Positions 2,210 to 43,813 of a DNA stretch of 64,000 bases are shown in pieces. Source of the stretch: a virus; the IMG/VR virus record IMGVR_UViG_3300048583_000222, positions 31,728-95,727 of that record. One strand, 5' to 3'. Each line of letters starts with the position of its first letter. The stretch's first letter is position 1. Position numbers and translations under genes: made by a program. Under the pieces are notes generated by a model. That model did not search any database, was not told the origin of the DNA, and saw nothing but the letters and a program-made list of their open reading frames with translations.

Positions 2210-5200
2210 GCTACAATATTAATGGTGATGTAAAAGTCTGTCGTACCTCCTGTATCTGATGTGGCCCGGCAGTTAAGCTGGTACACATCTCCGATCTCCG
2301 GGAACAGGTTTCCATTTACGATCAGTTCTCGGGTAGCGGGATTTATGGTAAAGAAAGGCAGGGCTGCAGGTACCGTACTGAGAAGCGTGACACTGTCGAC
2401 AAAGGTTCCACTTAAGGTAGTGAGGACGTAGTTGTTGTAGACAGAAGCTTCCAGGTCATACGTAAAGCCTACGATCACCGGTATCTTGACTTCATCGCAG
2501 CTCACTCCGCTAAGCACTACATTGTTGACGCCCCTGAATTCCAGGATACGTCCGTCCATGTAGACATAGTCTCCTACCACCAGTGTAGGGATATCAGCAT
2601 CCTCCAGGTTGAACCTGACTGCCTTAGAGGCCTTGGTATACTTGCAGGTGAGTAACAGTCGCTTGAACTCCGGATCGTATCCTACGGTAATCCCATCCCC
2701 AATGAAGGTATTGGTACGGGGAGCGAAGGTCTTGATGATCTCCAGGAATGTGTTGTACAGTCCGCCACCCAGATTCTCCGGCTTGGTTTTGTACATGAAG
2801 ATCTCCTGACTATTGGCATCCAGGAAGAAGTACCCGGCTGGAGAGCGCAGGCAACTCAAGTCGTGCTGGGTACCAGCATAGCCTAGAGGAGCACTTTGGG
2901 CGTCTTGCGGATCGAACTGGAAGATGTCGGCCGAGCCCAGGGTCACCTGGAGCACGTCGCTTTCCAGCTTGGTCTTGTCTTGGGTCACCAGCAAAGCTGA
3001 CTTGCAGTGGATCAGAAGTCTATCATCCTGCCCCTCGAGGTTGACGATCGTACCGACGTTCTTCTTGATTTCATAGTAATCCAGCGGCAGGAACGTACGC
3101 CAGCTTCGTGTCTTGTCTTGCCGGCCGAGCTGTCCTCCGCGGTGTATCCGGAAAGGGTGTATAGTGTTGACTTCGTTGTTCGTGTTGAAGATGCCGGTAT
3201 CGACACTCAGCTCATTAAGGGCATTGAAGTCCTTGGAATAGCCAAACTGATTGGGATCCTGCTTGAGGCTGTAATCGGTAATGTAGTTGTTGACGTCCTC
3301 CTTGACAATGGGCGAATTGGGATACCACTTGGAATACACATTGCCCGGGGTCTCAAACCGTGCATAGAGGTTCGACGCCGCTTCACAGGCAATGCGCCTG
3401 ACCACCTTGGTGCCAGACTTGTCCCCGAACTTCTGGTTGAACTGCATCCACCATCCATAGGTATGGAAGGAGTAATCCACAATGAAGGTATCTCCACCGA
3501 AGACTGTACTGGTTGTACCTACGACTTTGTCAGAAGCAGGGATGACTTTCTGGACCGTGAATGGGGCATAGACATCGTCTCGTACGCGCATCATGTTGGA
3601 CAGATGGGTAACCTCGTGTGGGATACAAAGCCCGGCACTTTGGTTATTCTCGTCTACGTCGTGCAGGTGCGTGGTGATGTCCGCAGTATCCATGACAGAG
3701 GCATTCAGCTTGCCGGCATAGTACGCTTCCAGATCTATGTTGTGCCAGGCAGATACCTCTGTATTGTTGGGTACCAGCTGGGTCTCTGTTATGTTGCGTA
3801 GTCGTTTGGCAGAGGACACCACAGTGGGCGTCAGACCTTTTGCCAGATAGTCGATCAGGTATACGATCGGACCACGTACGTCGTTATTGCCCAGGTTGTT
3901 GTCCTCGATGAATCCTTCAGTCTGCAGCTGGGTGCGCTTAAGCTTGAGGTGTGTCGACAGGTAATACCCTGTGTCAGACAGTGCCGGCTTGTTGAACAGC
4001 AGGTCAAAGCCATGGAATCTCATCGCTTTGGTATCCAGTCCAAGGGCATTGTCCGGAGGATTACCATCTGGCTTTTTGGCTGCATGGAAGTTGCCTCCTG
4101 TAGATACGTATTTTGTACCGCCTCCGGTGAGGGTGAATGCCCCACCATTGTAAGCAGCGTACTGTGCACTATGCATGAGCGCGCCTTGGGCCAGTACCGT
4201 GGCATTATTGAGGGTACGCTTGCCAAAGCCCAGCTGCCATCCGTCGATCTGATCGGCGTACTCAGCCGGTATGATGACATTGGTCAGTTTGAGACCCAGC
4301 AGGTCAAGCTTGTTCTTTCCGTAGGTAGTGTCTATGGGATACAGGTTTTCCTTGCACCAGGCAATGGAGGGCATGCGGTGATGCCGTACTTTCTGGTTGC
4401 GCAGGTTGACCCCACCCAACCCACCGGTACTGGAGTCAAAGCTCGGGTCGTCGGGATAGGTCTCGTTGTCGTTTTCCCAGTAGCCCATCTCTCCTTCGAG
4501 CTGTGCTGCATTGAAACTGGGGATGGTATCCTCTACCTGGAACTTCTTGGCAGTGATGCCTTGCGTATTGGCCAGGGTCGACGCGTCAGTCTCACCTGCC
4601 AGAGGAGCTCTGCCCGGGATGTGGAACCACTGGGTCCATCCTCCGCGGGTGAGTGAGTATCTTATATAAGGTGCTACGACTTCTTCGTGCATCCAGCTAC
4701 GCTTCTCTCCCCGTACGTGCTCCTGAGAAGGCGCCAGGGTATCAAGCAGTTCGCTTTTCCAGTTCACCCGGATCAGGTTGGCGTAGCGCTGCATGTTGAT
4801 GGTCGGGGCACTCTCGAGATTCCCCAGATACAGGGCATCGTTGAGTTGTCCGATCGTACCTACCTTGGTATAGAAGGCCTGTGGAATGAGTACATTCTCC
4901 AGTGTGGTATTCGTGGTAACCTCTGTACCGGTGTAGTTCAATGTCATCTCTTCCGACGTAATAGAAGCTTCTGGCAGCAGTTGCGGAGTACCATAGACTC
5001 CATTGACCTTGTAGAGGATCGCTGCCTGTACAAAATCATAGGTGAGGTCCAGGTTGGTCATGGTCAGTACCAGTGACTTGTCGGTCACTGAGTCAGTCGC
5101 TCCTGCTACGATCGTCACTCCGGTATTGCCCACGAAGCTGGTGATGGTACCGTCCTTCTTGGTGTAACGTACTGCAGCAAAGTAGGCCCCCGGGGAAAGT

Positions 5201-28761: not shown

Positions 28762-28834
28762 GGAGCAATAGCAAAGTTGGTCTATGCGGCGGACTGAAAA
28801 TCCGAAGATTGTGGTTCGATCCCACATTGCTCCA
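28762..28834 (+). tRNA. tRNA-Phe (GAA)
   Basis: A complete cloverleaf: acceptor GGAGCAA/TTGCTCC (28762-28768, 28827-28833), D-arm GC...GC with TTGGT, anticodon loop CTGAAAA giving GAA, and T-arm TGTGG-TTCGATC-CCACA. The discriminator is A and no encoded CCA follows. The anticodon stem has one mismatch at its base. The codons decoded are UUC/UUU. Confidence 0.9.
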
Positions 28835-28912
28835 CAAACTAAAGTAGGTTTTTCACAGGGACTTGATCTCCTAGCCTGTTTCTACATGCTGGACTTTTTT
28901 ATCTTTACCTAC

Positions 28913-29836: not shown

Positions 29837-29877
29837 ATCCCTCCTGTACTGAAAAGTGCAGGGGGATTTTTTTTTTT
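29837..29877 (+). terminator. Rho-independent terminator
   Basis: ATCC-CTCCTG pairs with CAGGG-GGAT (29837-29866), with a mismatch, followed by an 11-base T-run. It separates the small membrane gene from the next unit. Confidence 0.8.
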
Positions 29878-29897
29878 CACCTAAACTCAATGTGACT

Positions 29898-30173
29898 ATG
29901 TCACAACAGCCAATGAAACCCGCTCCGATTGTGCTGGAGCGAGGATACTGTACTTGTACAGCAGCACCAATGGCCCACGGAGGACTTGAAGGATACATGG
30001 ACAACATGGACTACAAGTATGAACTCATGATGGACTCGGGCATACCCAGCGCACAATGGTATAGGGTATATCATCACCAGGATCCAGATGAGGATGTCTA
30101 TTACCAAACCTGCAACAGTGGTATATTCAAACAACATTTCCGGATATTCCGGGTAGATACGAAATTATTGTAA
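29898..30173 (+). CDS. Hypothetical protein
   Basis: A 91-residue acidic protein from the ATG at 29898 (MSQQPMKPAPIVLERGY). Cysteines at CTCTAAP and YYQTCNSG and a Tyr-rich centre (MDYKYELMMD) are visible. No family recognised. It starts about 20 bases past the T-run of the terminator. Confidence 0.6.
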   Translation: MSQQPMKPAPIVLERGYCTCTAAPMAHGGLEGYMDNMDYKYELMMDSGIPSAQWYRVYHHQDPDEDVYYQTCNSGIFKQHFRIFRVDTKLL

Positions 30174-31001: not shown

Positions 31002-31002
31002 T

Positions 31003-31038
31003 ATGAAAGTAATCTATGAACCAGCCGAGAAATTATGA
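31003..31038 (+). other. 11-codon peptide at the RNA boundary
   Basis: ATG to TGA encodes MKVIYEPAEKL, directly before the structured RNA and sharing its stop with the first bases of it. The start (MKxIYEPxxK) resembles the first residues of phage radical SAM proteins, so it may be the remnant of a truncated gene, or a leader peptide. No homology can be tested at this length. Confidence 0.3.
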
Positions 31039-31303
31039 CCCCCTCTAAGTTAGACCGTGATCGTGGGTAGGAGGGTTGCGTAGAGCAACTAGGCGCCAGT
31101 ATGCGAAAGTGTAGCTGGTAGAGTGCTGAAGTCGACTAGGCACTCGTGGATACCCCAAGTAACCGGAGGATGCCGAGATTGGGGGCACTACGGTAGGCGG
31201 TAGTTGAAAGGTACTACGACGGTAAAAGCCCCGTGCGGGAGACGTACACCGCGGAATGACCCCCTGATGCCTTCCTGCAGCAATGTGGGAGGGTGACGGG
31301 GGT
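31038..31303 (+). ncRNA. Large structured RNA of unknown family
   Basis: A 266-nt gene-free stretch with many paired segments: GTTGC-GTAGA-GCAAC (31075-31089), CCAG..CTGG with a GAAA tetraloop (31096-31118), GAGTGC/GCACTC (31121-31145), CCCCAA/TTGGGG (31153-31184), GTAGT/ACTAC (31200-31217), GCGG/CCGC (31235-31252), and a terminal hairpin ACCCCC/GGGGGT with CCTTCC/GGGAGG (31259-31303). ACCCCC at 31038 could also pair with the 3' end. It lacks the known core of RNase P, tmRNA, group I or group II introns. Confidence 0.6.
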
Positions 31304-31310
31304 ATTTTAT
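31259..31310 (+). terminator. Terminator-like hairpin at RNA 3' end
   Basis: ACCCCC...GGGGGT with inner CCTTCC/GGGAGG, followed by ATTTTAT. Likely the 3' boundary of the structured RNA. Confidence 0.6.
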
Positions 31311-31330
31311 AACATCAAAACAACAATCGC

Positions 31331-31654
31331 ATGGTCACAGAACAAATGACTATGGACGAGATCATTCAGATTTGCCGGGTCGCTTTGGCAGAATGGGAAG
31401 CATTACACAAGAAGTACCCACAAGGAGCCCCTTTGAAGGTACGTCAGAATCGTAGAATAGCCTACGGACTGTGTTATTATTTGAAGCATGTACTAAACTG
31501 GGCTGACTTTCAAGAGTTGCTGGTACCTGAGCTGTTGGAACACAGAGGTAGCCTATTCTTGCCCCACATCCGGCCGTACAACAGGAAGAAGTACCTGCCT
31601 GTACGCATCCAGTTTCTGAAGAATCTCATTGAGGAACTCGAAGAAGCTAAATAA
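31331..31654 (+). CDS. Hypothetical protein
   Basis: A 107-residue basic helical protein (MTMDEIIQICRVALAEWEAL, KKYLPVRIQFLKNLIEELEE). Unknown family. It begins about 28 bases after the RNA and ends with a terminator, so it is a single-gene unit. Confidence 0.62.
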   Translation: MVTEQMTMDEIIQICRVALAEWEALHKKYPQGAPLKVRQNRRIAYGLCYYLKHVLNWADFQELLVPELLEHRGSLFLPHIRPYNRKKYLPVRIQFLKNLIEELEEAK

Positions 31655-31713
31655 GCACTCCCTCAGCAGACGAAGAATCCGTTGATGAAGTGGCGGGGGA
31701 GCTGCTTATTTTT
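31652..31713 (+). terminator. Terminator with long loop
   Basis: TAAGCA-CTCCC pairs with GGGAG-C-TGCTTA (31652-31662, 31697-31708), enclosing a 34-base loop, then TTTTT. The stop codon of the preceding gene is part of the stem. Confidence 0.65.
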
Positions 31714-31739
31714 ACTACCTTTAAACCCCCTTTTCAATT

Positions 31740-31958
31740 ATGGAGAATTCATGGATGATATTTGCCCACGAAGGCAATGCAAACCACATGTGGTACTGTG
31801 GCAATGACCACTATGTAGACCTCGAGACCGGAGAACAAGCCTGGGACATGGATATGGACCAACTGCACGAGATCCTGCACAACAAGAGAAAGAAACATTT
31901 TACTGACAACAAAACACGCTACGTCATTGTAGCACGAGGGACACGTTATGAACCTTAG
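31740..31958 (+). CDS. Hypothetical protein
   Basis: A 72-residue acidic protein (MENSWMIFAHEGNANHMWYC). Trp, His and Met are frequent. It overlaps the next gene by 11 bases and starts the replication-side cluster. TACCTTTA (31715-31722), one mismatch from the -7 box, is nearby. Confidence 0.55.
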   Translation: MENSWMIFAHEGNANHMWYCGNDHYVDLETGEQAWDMDMDQLHEILHNKRKKHFTDNKTRYVIVARGTRYEP

Positions 31959-32988: not shown

Positions 32989-33678
32989 ATGACCTTAGAA
33001 GAAAACATAGGCTCCGAGTGGGCCCAGGCATTGTCATGCGAATTTGACAAGGAGTACATGAAGATCATTGCAAGCCGTATACTCGCACAAGGAGACAAAC
33101 TCAGACCAGCTATTCCGGATATATTCAATGCCTATCGTAGTACACCCGTCAGTAATGTACGGGTGGTTATTATGGGGCAGGACCCCTATCCAGGTAATGA
33201 GGCCCATGGCCTGTCGTTCAGCAGTAAGCTGGGCAGTATACCTCCCTCATTGCGCATCATCTTCAAAGAGCTGGAGCGCAGTGGTATGGGTAAGCGTACT
33301 ACGCCTAACCTGCAAGACTGGGCAGACCAGGGAGTACTCATGCTCAACAGCGTACTCACGACAACTTATAGGGTAGCCAATGCGCACAAGGACTGGGGAT
33401 GGCAGCACTTCACGCATGCTACACTTAAACACCTTAACACATTGCAGCAACCTATCGTATACATGACCTGGGGTAAGCCTGCTGGTGAGTTGGTAAGCAA
33501 AGCATTCAAAGACGATGCGATAGAGGAAAACTTCTTCAGTGTACGATCCAGATTGCTCCTCACTGCATGTCATCCACAGGCAGAGAACTACTCCGGTGGT
33601 AAGCTGCAGTTTATAGGATGCGAGCATTTCTCACTGGCCAATGCGTTCTTACGCGACAAGGCCATTAAATGGGTATGA
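32989..33678 (+). CDS. ung: Uracil-DNA glycosylase, family 1
   Basis: A 229-residue glycosylase that removes uracil from DNA. The active-site motif GQDPYPGNEAHGLSFS (residues about 63-78) keeps the catalytic Asp and the water-binding region; the second motif is HPQAENYS in place of the usual HPSPLS, and the central MLNSVLTT agrees with family 1. Length matches Ung (about 220-230). It opens the replication operon; crAss-like phages carry UDG at this type of place. Confidence 0.9.
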   Translation: MTLEENIGSEWAQALSCEFDKEYMKIIASRILAQGDKLRPAIPDIFNAYRSTPVSNVRVVIMGQDPYPGNEAHGLSFSSKLGSIPPSLRIIFKELERSGMGKRTTPNLQDWADQGVLMLNSVLTTTYRVANAHKDWGWQHFTHATLKHLNTLQQPIVYMTWGKPAGELVSKAFKDDAIEENFFSVRSRLLLTACHPQAENYSGGKLQFIGCEHFSLANAFLRDKAIKWV

Positions 33679-33679
33679 T

Positions 33680-34102
33680 ATGGTAAGCGTAAAAGAGCTT
33701 TCCGAAGGACGGATACTGATCATGGGAGGGTCACGTTACGAGTACCCTGATCCGGTTATGGATTACTGTCCTATAGCAGGCAAACCTACAAAGGAACGCA
33801 GCCTGGAGATGGTACTGATGCCGGGCAAGACCGTGGAGGACCTTAGGGTAATCCTACGTAAGTATCCGCAAATCAGGATTCAGCACATCATTGCCCACGA
33901 GCCCTACATCACTGAACGTGAACAGCAGCTGATCTTCGGTCATATCAAGACCATACAGGAGGTAGCTGCCTGGAAACGCATCAAGGTGGAGGGTGTGGAT
34001 TATATCGACGAGTTCGGCTTTCATGTCTACGTACGGAGCGAACTTGATTTCTTTGGCAACATGTCGGACGTAGATCTCCGGTATGACAACGAACCTGTAT
34101 GA
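33680..34102 (+). CDS. Hypothetical protein next to DNA polymerase
   Basis: A 140-residue protein from the ATG at 33680 (MVSVKELSEGRILIMGGSRY). It has a central helix (ITEREQQLIFGHIKTIQEVA) and an acidic C-terminus. Unknown function. It overlaps the polymerase start by four bases, so it is probably cotranslated and could be a polymerase or UDG partner; this is inferred from position only. Confidence 0.6.
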   Translation: MVSVKELSEGRILIMGGSRYEYPDPVMDYCPIAGKPTKERSLEMVLMPGKTVEDLRVILRKYPQIRIQHIIAHEPYITEREQQLIFGHIKTIQEVAAWKRIKVEGVDYIDEFGFHVYVRSELDFFGNMSDVDLRYDNEPV

Positions 34103-35403
34103 TTTACGTAGTAGCACGTCAGTGTAATAACGCAACTTTCGACCAGTTCATGTACTGGCAGAAAAACCAGAATCGCTTCATGGTGGACAGTGAGACTACG
34201 GTACATGAGCAGTGGTGCGAACGTCAGCTGGTGCTCATCCAGTTCGGTAACGGTACAGATGAGTGGCTGCTGCAGTGGAGCTTCCTCACAGACATGCAGA
34301 AGGCACGGGTGCGCGGTATCCTGTTTGACGACAGGCTCAAAGTATTGCACAATGCCTATTTTGATTGTATCGTGTTCCGCTTTGCCGGTATGGTCATGCG
34401 CAACGTGTACTGTACTATGGTAGCGGAAATGGGACTGAACTGTGGCAAGCTTAACCGGGAAGACGAAGAGGAGGAGGATGTGGAAGGTGCTGAGTTGGGG
34501 TTCTATTCCCTGGCTGGGCTATTGGACCGCAGACTCAATCTTCGTATCTCCAAGGAAGCGCAGACCAGATTCGGGGACGACATCCTCACTCCTGAGAAAG
34601 TAGAGTATGCTGCTATCGATGTACGGCACCTGTTCAAGATCCAGGAACTGCAGCGTCTCGACCTCCATGAAACAGATCTGGAGATGACCTGTGCACTGGA
34701 CTGTGCAGCCATTCCGGGACTGGCGGAGATGACCTACAATGGAATGCCGCTGGATACTGTAGCATGGCGTGCCAACATTGACCTGGCCTGGCCGGTAGTA
34801 CAGCACTCTATTGCCCAGCTCGAGCAACGGGTGAAAGCAGAGCCCAAGCTACTGGCTAAGGTCATTGAGATGCAGCGCTACAGTGATGAGGATAAGATCG
34901 TACTGAACACCAACTCGTTTAACCACCTGCGTACCATCTTTGCGCATGTATTCCCTGAAGTAGGCGGTGCCACACGTGCGATCGTTCGTGGGTTCATGAA
35001 ACATCATGACATTCAGGATCCTGAAATACGCACCGTGTTCCAGCACTTCGAAGCAGGGGATACGGAACCTCTGAAGATGTACCTGTACAATCACCACCGG
35101 GATTTCCTGATCAGTAATGACTGGCTCATCCCGGCAGGAGCCATCACCATCAACTGGAATTCCCAGCAACAAGTACTGGCTCTGCTGCAGGTACTGGACA
35201 AGAAGCTTCAAGCCTTAGATAAACAGTCCATGAGTAAGTTCTCACATCCTATAGGTCTTGACCTTAAGGATTATAAAGATTCCATGAAACTGGTTACTAC
35301 CTACGGCGAGAAGTTCATTGAACAGCACGTGGAAAGCGATGGCATGGTACGAACCACGTTCAACGTGATCGTATCTACCGGTCGACTCAGCAGTCGCAAG
35401 CCT
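34099..35403 (+). CDS. polA: DNA polymerase I (family A), exon 1
   Basis: The first 435 codons of the replicative family A polymerase. The N-terminus holds the 3'-5' exonuclease (DSETTVH, NAYFDCIVF, later YAAIDVRHLFKI), and the end enters the polymerase domain at FNVIVSTGRLSSRKP. The exon ends at CCT (35403) by comparison with the conserved SSxxPNLQNIP region: joining to AAT at 36378 restores KPNMQNIPAK. The frame continues to a false stop inside the intron (35619). The spliced protein would be 725 residues, a normal size. Confidence 0.9.
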
Positions 35404-35585
35404 AAATATATTGGGCAGCGTAGCCGTGAGGCACGTAAAAAATATCGGGTGAACTCAGGGAAAGCTGAAATGCCAATCCTGAGCCAAGCTGTAGAAGGAC
35501 TAGTGAATCTACAGAAGGTGCAGAGACTAGCGTGTGAGACCAACAATAATCACGCAAATAGCGCCCGATTACTTGAAAGGAATGT

Positions 35586-35616
35586 TTTGAATATACGGTC
35601 ATTAGCCGTATGTTTG
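35586..35616 (+). promoter_or_regulatory. Intron-internal promoter of the LAGLIDADG gene
   Basis: TTTG (35586-35589), 19 nt, TATGTTTG (35609-35616) is a complete match to the Bacteroidetes promoter. The ATG follows four bases after the -7 box, so transcripts should start at or next to it. An inverted repeat ATACGG/CCGTAT (35592-35610) fills the spacer and may be an operator or an intron stem. Confidence 0.68.
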
Positions 35617-35620
35617 TAGT

Positions 35621-36361
35621 ATGAAAAGATGGAACATAAACATCAGCAAAGAAACGATTGAGGAAATGCAGCGAGCAGGCTATACACAGCTAGAAATGGC
35701 ATCCAAATTAGGGGTATCAGTGTCTGTGGTGGAACGTCGGATCAAGAAATTCAACCTACAGGGGTACAGTCCTGTCAGGTATAATCTTATGACCCCGAAT
35801 AACCCTGTATTTTGCTATTTACTCGGCTGGTTTGCAGCTGATGGGTACTTGACTAAGCACAACAGGGTTAGTCTTCGTACGTATGAGCACGATGTCGTTG
35901 ACAAACTGAGTAGTTACTTTGGTACACGCAAATATGAAATACGTAGAGAAGGTAAGTGTAGTACACACGAACTGTATTTTGCACAAGCTCCTGCAATTTT
36001 CAAAGAAATCTGTGGACAAGGTAAAACCAGAGATTGTCAAGTACCCGCTGTTCAGTATTTTGATATGTTTCTTAGAGGAGTTATTGAAGGTGATGGTACA
36101 ATAAGACCCTTACAACACAAAGGAGGAGGGCTCGTTCGTATCTTCACTTGTTCAGAAAACTTCGCTTTAGAACTACAAGCACGATGTCCTTATCCGTTAC
36201 GTCTTCGCAAAGATCGTATGGGATGGGAACTGAGTTCAAACTCCACACAGTTCTTGTCTTATGTGTACACAAATCATCTTGATTTTGTGTGTTCGCGTAA
36301 GTTCAAACGTGTGCAACCTCGCATTCAAGTAAATGATATAGTCCAACCTAATGGAAAATGA
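35621..36361 (+). CDS. LAGLIDADG homing endonuclease in intron 1
   Basis: A 246-residue endonuclease that copies the intron into intron-less alleles. It has two LAGLIDADG-type motifs, LLGWFAADGYL (about residue 66) and FLRGVIEGDGTI (about 147), plus an N-terminal helix-turn-helix (YTQLEMASKLGVSVSVVERR) for DNA binding. Its last codons run over the intron S element and into the P9 hairpin, so coding and RNA structure share bases. Its own promoter is directly upstream. Confidence 0.87.
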   Translation: MKRWNINISKETIEEMQRAGYTQLEMASKLGVSVSVVERRIKKFNLQGYSPVRYNLMTPNNPVFCYLLGWFAADGYLTKHNRVSLRTYEHDVVDKLSSYFGTRKYEIRREGKCSTHELYFAQAPAIFKEICGQGKTRDCQVPAVQYFDMFLRGVIEGDGTIRPLQHKGGGLVRIFTCSENFALELQARCPYPLRLRKDRMGWELSSNSTQFLSYVYTNHLDFVCSRKFKRVQPRIQVNDIVQPNGK

Positions 36362-36377
36362 ACCATTAGATAAGTTG

Positions 36378-36701
36378 AATATGCAGAACATTCCGGCTAA
36401 GGAAGCAGTAGGTAATCGTTACCGCAACTGTTTTGTAGCAGAGGATGGCTGGGTGTATGTGGACAGTGACTATGCTTCCCAGGAGCTGGTGGTGATTGCC
36501 TTCATATCGGGAGATCCGGTATGGATGGATGCACTGCAAAGAGGTAAGGACCTGCATAGTGTATGTGCAGAGGTAGTGTACAAGGATCTCTGGAAGCGTT
36601 CTGCTGATAGTGATTGTGCGTACTACCATGACGGACAGAAGAAGTGTAAGTGCAAAGCCCATAAAAAGCTGAGGGATGGTATCAAAACCATCAACTTCGG
36701 T
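36378..36701 (+). CDS. polA: DNA polymerase I, exon 2
   Basis: Exon of 108 codons, from AAT (36378) to GGT (36701). It contains MQNIPAK, polymerase motif A (VDSDYASQELVVIAFISGD) with the metal-binding Asp, and the start of motif B (RDGIKTINFG). Just before motif B lies a Cys/His-rich insert (DCAYYHDGQKKCKCKAH) that may bind zinc; I recall this insert in related phage polymerases. Phase is zero at both ends. The short open frame upstream (MENEPLDK) is intron sequence, not exon. Confidence 0.9.
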
Positions 36702-36711
36702 TAAATTAAAG

Positions 36712-36719
36712 TATCTTTG
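36712..36719 (+). promoter_or_regulatory. -7-type box before the HNH gene
   Basis: TATCTTTG matches TAnnTTTG and is four bases from the ATG at 36724, the same distance as in intron 1 (TAGT versus TAGA). No TTTG is seen 19-21 nt upstream, so the promoter is weaker or incomplete. It lies at the 5' end of the intron RNA. Confidence 0.5.
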
Positions 36720-36723
36720 TAGA

Positions 36724-37242
36724 ATGAAATCACAAAGTAGCCAGGCCGAAGTAAAACTTTCCAAATTCGGGGAACTCTCAGCAAGTAACGTTGGAGACAA
36801 TCCCGAGCCAAGCACTGTAGAGAAGTCTGCAGAGGCGTGTGTAGAGACTAGACGGAAAGTGTGTATTAAATGTGGGGGAGACATACCCTCAAGGAAGTAC
36901 AGCAACGCAAAATACTGTAGTGATAAATGCAGAAGTGCATTCATATCACTCAGACATGCACATCGTACCGGCCGCATCAAGAATCCTAATGTAGGTTCTG
37001 GAGGAGCCCAGCAAGGACAAGCCAATCATCAGTACAAGACTGGTATAGGCATGTACACTAAGCTGGGATTCGCTGCGCACGGTAAGATTTGCAACAGGTG
37101 CGGAGCTACAGCTACCTTGATCCATCACAAGGATCACAACCGGTTGAACAATCAGGTTGATAATCTTGAGCCGTTGTGCAAACGGTGCCACCAAGAACAT
37201 CACTGTGTTCGTGATCTGGAAGGCAAATACACAAAGGGATAG
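36724..37242 (+). CDS. HNH homing endonuclease in intron 2
   Basis: A 172-residue protein. The HNH core is TLIHHKDHNRLNNQVDNLEP followed by LCKRCHQEHH. There are two zinc-binding Cys pairs (CIKCGG, YCSDKC) and another (CNRCGA). The first 45 codons overlap the intron P, Q and R elements, so the real start may be internal, although the ATG at 36724 has a promoter box. The protein would nick or cut the unspliced motif B site. Length is within the phage HNH range. Confidence 0.82.
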   Translation: MKSQSSQAEVKLSKFGELSASNVGDNPEPSTVEKSAEACVETRRKVCIKCGGDIPSRKYSNAKYCSDKCRSAFISLRHAHRTGRIKNPNVGSGGAQQGQANHQYKTGIGMYTKLGFAAHGKICNRCGATATLIHHKDHNRLNNQVDNLEPLCKRCHQEHHCVRDLEGKYTKG

Positions 37243-37274
37243 TCCACGCTGTCAGGAAACTGACAGAAGCCGTG

Positions 37275-37823
37275 TTGGCATACGGCATGAGCAAGTACAA
37301 GCTTTCTGCGAGTCTGTCCATTTCAGTACCCGATGCAGACAAGCTGATCACCGAGTACTTCACCCGGTTCCCTAAGATCAAGAAAGCACTGACGTACATG
37401 GGCCTGTTCGGTGTACGTAAAGGCTACATTCAGACACTTGCCCCGTTCTTTCGCAAGCGGTGGTTCCCGTACTGGAAATTCGCACGTCGTAACATCGACG
37501 CACATATCCAGGGAGTCCAGTACGACAGTACACTGGGCAGTATAGAACGGGCAAGTAAGAACATGCCAGTCCAAGGCAGTTCAGCGGACATGACCAAAGT
37601 TGCTATCTGGATGATGCATGAGTACATTCACCTGAATGCACTATCGCACAAAGTCCGGTTGGTAATGCAGGTACATGACCAGCTAACCACGAGGGCACGG
37701 AATGATTATGCAGAGCAATGGAAGGAAACCATGCACCAGCTCATGCTGGATGCTGCAAAGTTCACCATCACCAATGGCCTGTTAGGGGCTGAGACAAACA
37801 TCACAAACGTATGGACCAAGTAA
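37275..37823 (+). CDS. polA: DNA polymerase I, exon 3
   Basis: The last 182 codons plus stop. It begins LAYGMSKYKLS (rest of motif B) and carries motif C as LVMQVHDQLTT. The metal-binding Asp is kept; the usual Glu of HDE is Gln here. The C-terminus ends NITNVWTK. Its stop lies 13 bases past the start of the DnaA-like gene. Frame and residues fit exon 2 after removal of intron 2. Confidence 0.9.
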   Translation: MAYGMSKYKLSASLSISVPDADKLITEYFTRFPKIKKALTYMGLFGVRKGYIQTLAPFFRKRWFPYWKFARRNIDAHIQGVQYDSTLGSIERASKNMPVQGSSADMTKVAIWMMHEYIHLNALSHKVRLVMQVHDQLTTRARNDYAEQWKETMHQLMLDAAKFTITNGLLGAETNITNVWTK

Positions 37824-43079: not shown

Positions 43080-43813
43080 TGTTGCCCGCGAAAGTCGTAA
43101 AGGCAACCAGGTTATCTCCCAAGATACTGGTACTATACGGCGTACCCAAAGTGGGTAAGACAAAAGTACTGACGGATCTGGGCGACGAGTGCCTCATCCT
43201 GGACACAGAAGACGGTACGGCTATGTACGACTGTCTGAACGTGCCCATCAGCAGTGCTGCCATGCTCGATAAGTTTATCGACGCGGTCAGGGCTGAGGCA
43301 AAAGCCCGTAAGGAATCCGGCAAGACCGGTGATGAACTGTATCCGTACAAGTACGGTGCAGTAGACACACTGGATAAGCTGGAGGAGATTGCGGAGATCG
43401 AAGCCACCCGAAAGTACAAGGCCAGTAACCTATGTAGCAAGGAATTCAAGGCAGAAGGTAAGAGCGTCACCGAGCTTCCGCACGGTTTGGGCTACTACTA
43501 TCTGCGTGAGGAATTGTTACTGATGATCAACAAACTGGCGCCGATTTTCAAGTACCTCATCCTTGTTGTCCACGTGAAGGAAAAGCTTCTGGACAAGAAG
43601 GGAGAGCAAGTGAAGGTTAATGACATTTCACTGACCGGTAAACTCGGTATGATGGTGTGTGCGAAAGCAGATGCTATCGGATACCTGAGCCGGGAAACCA
43701 ATGGACTCCAGGTCAGCTTCCAGACCTCGGAGAGCCATGTCATGGGAGCTCGTCAGCCACACCTGGCTGGGCAGAAGTTCCCGTTCGACTGGAAGAAGAT
43801 TTATATCGATTGA
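43052..43813 (+). CDS. Sak4-like RecA-fold ATPase
   Basis: A 253-residue protein with Walker A GVPKVGKTKVL (about residue 30), the DTEDGT motif, and Walker B YLILVVHVKE. This is the AAA_24/Sak4 pattern of phage single-strand annealing proteins. It probably catalyses strand annealing or exchange in recombination, next to the DnaB-like helicase and a candidate SSB. It overlaps the helicase gene by 28 bases. Confidence 0.82.
   Translation: MSEILTKNVMLPAKVVKATRLSPKILVLYGVPKVGKTKVLTDLGDECLILDTEDGTAMYDCLNVPISSAAMLDKFIDAVRAEAKARKESGKTGDELYPYKYGAVDTLDKLEEIAEIEATRKYKASNLCSKEFKAEGKSVTELPHGLGYYYLREELLLMINKLAPIFKYLILVVHVKEKLLDKKGEQVKVNDISLTGKLGMMVCAKADAIGYLSRETNGLQVSFQTSESHVMGARQPHLAGQKFPFDWKKIYID

Follow-up and report, generated by a model that had tools for sequence, protein, structure and literature searches.

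A small conserved two-hairpin RNA element, a candidate leader RNA, upstream of the replication genes of a crAss-like phage

Results and discussion

A small, real and conserved RNA element of two adjacent hairpins, with a fixed internal loop and no catalogued family, occupies the last ~75 nt of the non-coding region 31038–31303 of the window (the whole 64,000-nt stretch analysed here); the 5′ extension that precedes it is not conserved. The favoured reading, to which we assign a probability of about 0.4, sees the region as a structured leader RNA that acts in cis on the replication-gene transcript, probably by antitermination. We infer transcription, action in cis, a switch between folds and antitermination or attenuation from the evidence below, and a new regulatory leader RNA is plausible but thinly supported. 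A sequence-only reading had proposed a phage regulatory RNA, which is still the best description, although conservation does not extend to the whole RNA and the covariation comes from two sequences; nothing in the analysis supports the scaffold or defence role offered alongside it.

Genome and setting

The window corresponds to positions 31728–95727 of a 95.7-kb IMG/VR virus record, and PHROG families match the major head protein, portal and terminase of the phage. Because its TerL matches among phage records reach ~30% identity at best and are mostly to uncultured crAss-like, Bacteroides and Flavobacterium phages, it is a crAss-like phage of a lineage without a close record. Closer relatives by TerL (72–90%), among them contigs from IMG/VR samples 3300049479, 3300049489 and 3300044712, are short contigs that end short of the RNA locus, so that a single syntenic comparison is available, with a genome found through alignment of PolA exons (L056, also G015, 94.3 kb). 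The two phages are collinear (identity 56–67% for the PolA exons, 70% for TerL and 79% for the head protein) and in both the locus is followed by homologous small genes, UDG, PolA and helicases. The RNA region itself is placed among small + strand genes, directly upstream of this cluster, as follows.

29856–30173, + strand: gene with a homologue at L056 4254–4511, the upstream synteny anchor
31038–31303, + strand: whole candidate RNA region, 266 nt, non-coding and G-rich, folding better than shuffled sequence on the + strand only
31331–31654, + strand: first gene after the RNA, encoding 107 aa, without a family match at curated cut-offs
31652–31708, + strand: hairpin resembling a terminator, with UAUUUUU after it, in the interval between genes 31331 and 31740
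31740–31958, + strand: small gene with a homologue at L056 5263–5493, the downstream synteny anchor
32989–33678: uracil-DNA glycosylase (UDG), downstream of the RNA region
34099–37823: DNA polymerase A (PolA), downstream of the RNA region and followed by helicases

No homologue of the gene at 31331–31654 was found in L056 or in phage records. The single tRNA gene of the window, tRNA-Phe (GAA), lies at 28762–28835. Two group I introns interrupt the PolA gene. The first (core match 35394–35632, with a LAGLIDADG ORF at 35621–36361) has no intron match in L056; the second (36693–37266, overlapped by an HNH-like ORF at 36676–37242) is 77% identical in L056 over 557 nt, with lower identity, 65–69%, in the flanking exons. 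Relatives of PolA, primase, Sak4 and an RIIA-like protein cluster at ~970–990 kb of a 1.6-Mb isolate contig of Zeaxanthinibacter sp. PT1 (L148; NZ_JAQPCN010000001.1), perhaps representing an integrated or co-assembled crAss-like phage.

Coding potential and folding of the region

Positions 31002–31330 form a 329-nt gap that is free of any credible ORF and in which stems can be drawn, as originally described; the accompanying statement that the genome is densely coded is only roughly true, since a simple gene caller leaves other gaps of 150–1270 nt as well. A short ORF at 31004–31039 (MKVIYEPAEKL, with AGGAG upstream) ends exactly at the start of the RNA, its stop lying inside the ATGACCCCCT repeat, and could be a leader peptide or a gene remnant; a search of related loci for a truncated gene revealed nothing similar.

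The 266-nt region contains 94 G vs 60 C and has a GC content of 58%, compared with a genome mean of 49%. On the + strand it folds with a minimum free energy of −104.5 kcal/mol (z −2.53), compared with z +0.37 for the − strand. The better folding of the + strand and the 16 G–U pairs in the minimum-energy structure favour RNA over DNA. Since ~15 other 266-nt segments of the genome reach a lower z in a folding scan, the folding energy is unexceptional for this genome and alone proves little. The lowest value in that scan (z −6.8, + strand, 43540–43805) falls within a Sak4-like coding region. The following parts can be distinguished.

31035–31044, + strand: first copy of the direct repeat ATGACCCCCT, repeated exactly at 31256–31265; a 5′ arm that can pair with GGGGGT at the 3′ end
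31067–31076, + strand: GTAGGAGGGT, a near-copy of the descending arm of the 3′ hairpin (31285–31294) that can pair with either ACCCCCT copy
31095–31119, + strand: hairpin A with a GAAA (GNRA) tetraloop, GCGAAAGU; window-specific
31122–31215, + strand: long interrupted rod hairpin of several short helices, z −2.85; window-specific
31231–31254, + strand: hairpin C, the 5′ member of the conserved two-hairpin core; counterpart at L056 4974–4994
31259–31303, + strand: 3′ hairpin with a GCAA loop, second half of the core; counterpart at L056 4997–5048
31265–31269 (YGAUG) opposite 31294–31297 (YGAC), + strand: invariant, asymmetric internal loop of the 3′ hairpin

The GNRA tetraloop hairpin noted in the first reading is therefore present, at 31095–31119, and that reading described the structure largely correctly.

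Searches for homologues and known families

Using blastn, the whole RNA gave no match among phages and plasmids, and no similarity was found in related virus records. The RNA regions of the window and of L056 gave no lambdoid hit against 50,697 phage records. Among 396 genomes of the phylum, the whole RNA produced two weak hits only, at about chance level: one of them falls within an ORF of 239 aa in a GC-rich stretch, and the second matches over 27 nt at 89%. DNA patterns, both exact and degenerate, retrieved no new homologue from IMG/VR, their 25 and 66 hits being chance-like except for the genome of L056 itself. G001, a relative retrieved through UDG and TerL and with a TerL identity of 53%, contains no copy detectable by blastn or by the later model.

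The absence of a recognized family was borne out. A search of Rfam 15 with 451 bases yielded no match at gathering thresholds or at E values up to 10, and the group I model also misses the region: RF00028, run over the whole genome at E values up to 10, returns only the two polA introns. A group I or group II intron is further contradicted by the separate ORFs that flank the region, the upstream one (31004–31039) ending at its own stop. A hammerhead, considered by eye from CUGAUG beside a stem, was rejected for a core that lacks the required GAAA and for the absence of an Rfam hit, and a kink-turn, considered for UGAUG/UGA, for its missing 3-nt bulge.

The conserved 3′ core

L056 carries, at 4974–5048 on the + strand and between the synteny anchors, two adjacent hairpins (z −4.8 to −6.3) separated by 1–2 bases, giving a core of ~75 nt, the second of which reads CTCCC-CGATG-CCCC...GGGG-CGAC-GGGAG. 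The hairpins measure 21–24 and 45–52 nt and are adjacent in both phages. The core hairpin was first spotted by eye and then tested in two ways, with a structural scan and a covariance model. The scan (helix, YGAUG, helix, loop, YGAC, helix), applied to 1.57 Mb of related sequence with both strands counted, retrieves hairpins with this internal loop from two genomes only, those of the window and of L056, some of the loci being overlapping ones; a looser pattern adds only a few weak, unrelated hits. R2, a covariance model for which the window hairpin was the sole input, finds G015 as its top non-self match in 740 kb, at the syntenic place, with 24.7 bits (E 7 × 10−5), the runner-up scoring 12.1 bits (E 2). 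Position and model score together give good support to the homology of the core.

A MAFFT alignment of the 3′ region contains 14 pairs, with all 28 cells of the two sequences forming standard pairs and one two-sided compensatory change between the window and L056 in each of three helices; that in hairpin C is C–G to G–C. When the alignment is slid, ~42–56% of the cells are paired, with at most one two-sided change, and the real alignment is equalled by 61 of 500 column shuffles. The covariation is consistent with a conserved structure but, at two sequences, is non-significant and cannot prove a family. The covariance check proposed at the outset is passed minimally by the 3′ core, on the strength of one homologue with a single compensatory change in each of three helices. 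The idea of a long conserved RNA did not hold, because recurrence is limited to the final ~75 nt and to a single relative, with no relative detectable for the 5′ ~190 nt. A model of hairpin A and the rod (R3, 31092–31216) had no hit in the 740 kb of related loci or the 396 genomes of the phylum, and L056 has only ~50 nt before its core, so that the 5′ ~190 nt appear, as far as seen, to be specific to the window phage.

The 3′ hairpin could instead be an ordinary terminator, or a processing or insulator hairpin between operons, with the 5′ 190 nt as unremarkable untranslated or decayed sequence. Terminator-like hairpins are indeed common across this genome in a terminator scan, the z-score for the folding energy of the full region is nothing unusual in this genome and the 5′ part is found nowhere else. 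A terminator, however, has no need of a fixed internal loop, and YGAUG/YGAC is kept while the stems change; nor would decayed sequence be expected to fold in a strand-specific manner, whereas the 5′ part reaches −46.9 kcal/mol compared with −27.7 kcal/mol on the other strand. An intrinsic-terminator check found the U-rich tail UAUUUUAU after the window hairpin, UAAUUCC after that of L056, and the 3′ hairpin missing from the terminator-scan lists. The terminator-like 3′ end reported earlier agrees with the U-rich window tail, but the resemblance is weak and the tail is not conserved. We consider this explanation rather unlikely.

In L056 the hairpins come close to perfect inverted repeats and have almost the same stability on either strand, as might be expected of a replication origin, a recombination site or another element that works at the level of DNA, and the GC-skew minimum of the window genome is ~4.3 kb away. 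The skew minimum of G015, however, lies elsewhere than at the homologous place, and in the window the folding is strongly strand-specific and includes the G–U pairs, making a DNA element most improbable.

Duplicated arms and competing folds

The 3′ GGGGGT can pair with either ACCCCCT copy, giving two competing folds that are separated by about 1–4 kcal/mol. The closed 5′–3′ fold leads by 1.3 kcal/mol in the excised 266-nt RNA and the local 3′ hairpin by ~3–4 kcal/mol when flanking sequence is included. On these modelled energies, the arm duplication could possibly constitute a two-state switch, which would not be conserved since the 5′ part is not conserved. Repeats of 10 bases are, besides, not unusual in this genome.

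The preference of the excised RNA for the closed fold would also suit a free-standing, trans-acting small RNA of ~270 nt (~110 nt in L056), closed by ACCCCC/GGGGGU, with the 3′ hairpin as its end and a protein or an RNA as its binding target. The U-rich UAUUUUAU after the window hairpin and the different first downstream genes in the two phages fit this interpretation too. With its flanks, however, the closed fold loses by 3–4 kcal/mol, and the L056 copy has neither a U-run after the hairpin nor the 5′ arm, so a trans-acting RNA is regarded as a rather unlikely alternative.

Alternatively, the 10-bp direct repeat, identical at the two edges (31035 and 31256), and the absence of the intervening segment from L056 could reflect a recent small insertion of the 5′ ~220 nt, as a mobile RNA or intron-like element, with ATGACCCCCT on both sides as its target duplication. 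Against this, repeats of at least 10 bases occur in 19 of 193 segments of equal size, no terminal inverted repeats were seen, there is no group I match, phage reverse transcriptase or second copy in the genome, and the second arm repeat, at nearly equal spacing, fits arm pairing equally well. An insertion appears very unlikely.

Comparison with known systems

The putRNA of phage HK022 is ~70 nt long, comprises two stem-loops and acts in cis on polymerase (PMC9378689). Its two adjacent stem-loops with internal loops stand in an early-transcript leader upstream of terminators (PMC9378689), and the core has a similar pair of adjacent hairpins in a putative leader position; HK022, however, is a lambdoid phage of E. 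coli, in contrast to the crAss-like phage (viruses of Bacteroidetes) considered here. The likeness is one of layout only, and polymerase binding and antitermination by the core are putative. By this analogy, the most specific version of the leader reading would be a new crAss-like leader RNA family in which a putRNA-like core modifies host or phage RNA polymerase and a 190-nt 5′ extension with duplicated arms makes it a two-state switch; taken in full, it is doubtful.

The group I introns of the window phage (RF00028; 35394–35632 and 36693–37266) are likewise structured RNAs in the same replication cluster, but the family search of the whole genome misses the RNA region. The large ornate RNAs GOLLD, ROOL and OLE (PMC12286853) are similarly large, multi-hairpin and non-coding; the region is much shorter (266 nt) and has no Rfam match. 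Retron ncRNAs (msr-msd) share 5′ and 3′ inverted arms that close an RNA with a long rod hairpin; a retron was rejected, as the reverse transcriptase PF00078 is absent from G000 and G015 and no Rfam match was obtained.

A possible leader function

If the region is a leader RNA, the core would be its last ~75 nt, with two hairpins and the YGAUG/YGAC loop held between helices that change in a compensatory way. It would fold in the nascent replication transcript and act in cis, with RNA polymerase or a protein of phage or host as its most likely binding partner, which would let polymerase read through downstream terminator-like hairpins such as that at 31652–31708. This hairpin leaves only ~30 nt upstream of gene 31740 for a promoter, which is too short for an ordinary one; a read-through element in the leader would make sense. 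The second arm copies (ACCCCCU and GGAGGGU) in the 5′ ~190-nt extension could control whether the lower stem of the 3′ hairpin is open or closed, and a leader with such duplicated arms may be a two-state switch.

The leader position itself we infer from gene order only. The upstream gene of L056 (4531–4920) is on the − strand, ~50 nt from the core; because it is divergent, a transcript carrying the L056 core would most likely start within roughly those 50 nt, unless it starts inside the gene. Several observations count against the leader reading: no promoter was recognizable; the 5′ part, and with it the switch, is not conserved; the first downstream genes are non-homologous between the phages, which weakens gene-specific control in cis; only two sequences are available, and the shuffle control matches them in 61 of 500 cases; and the near-equal stability of the L056 hairpins on both strands leaves room for a possible DNA-level role there.

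The present evidence reaches only to the small conserved two-hairpin element. crAss-like phages are abundant, and little is known about how they time gene expression; if true, a conserved leader RNA heading the replication genes would provide a control element that is concrete and can be tested, and it would be notable to find an antiterminator made of RNA only outside the lambdoid phages.
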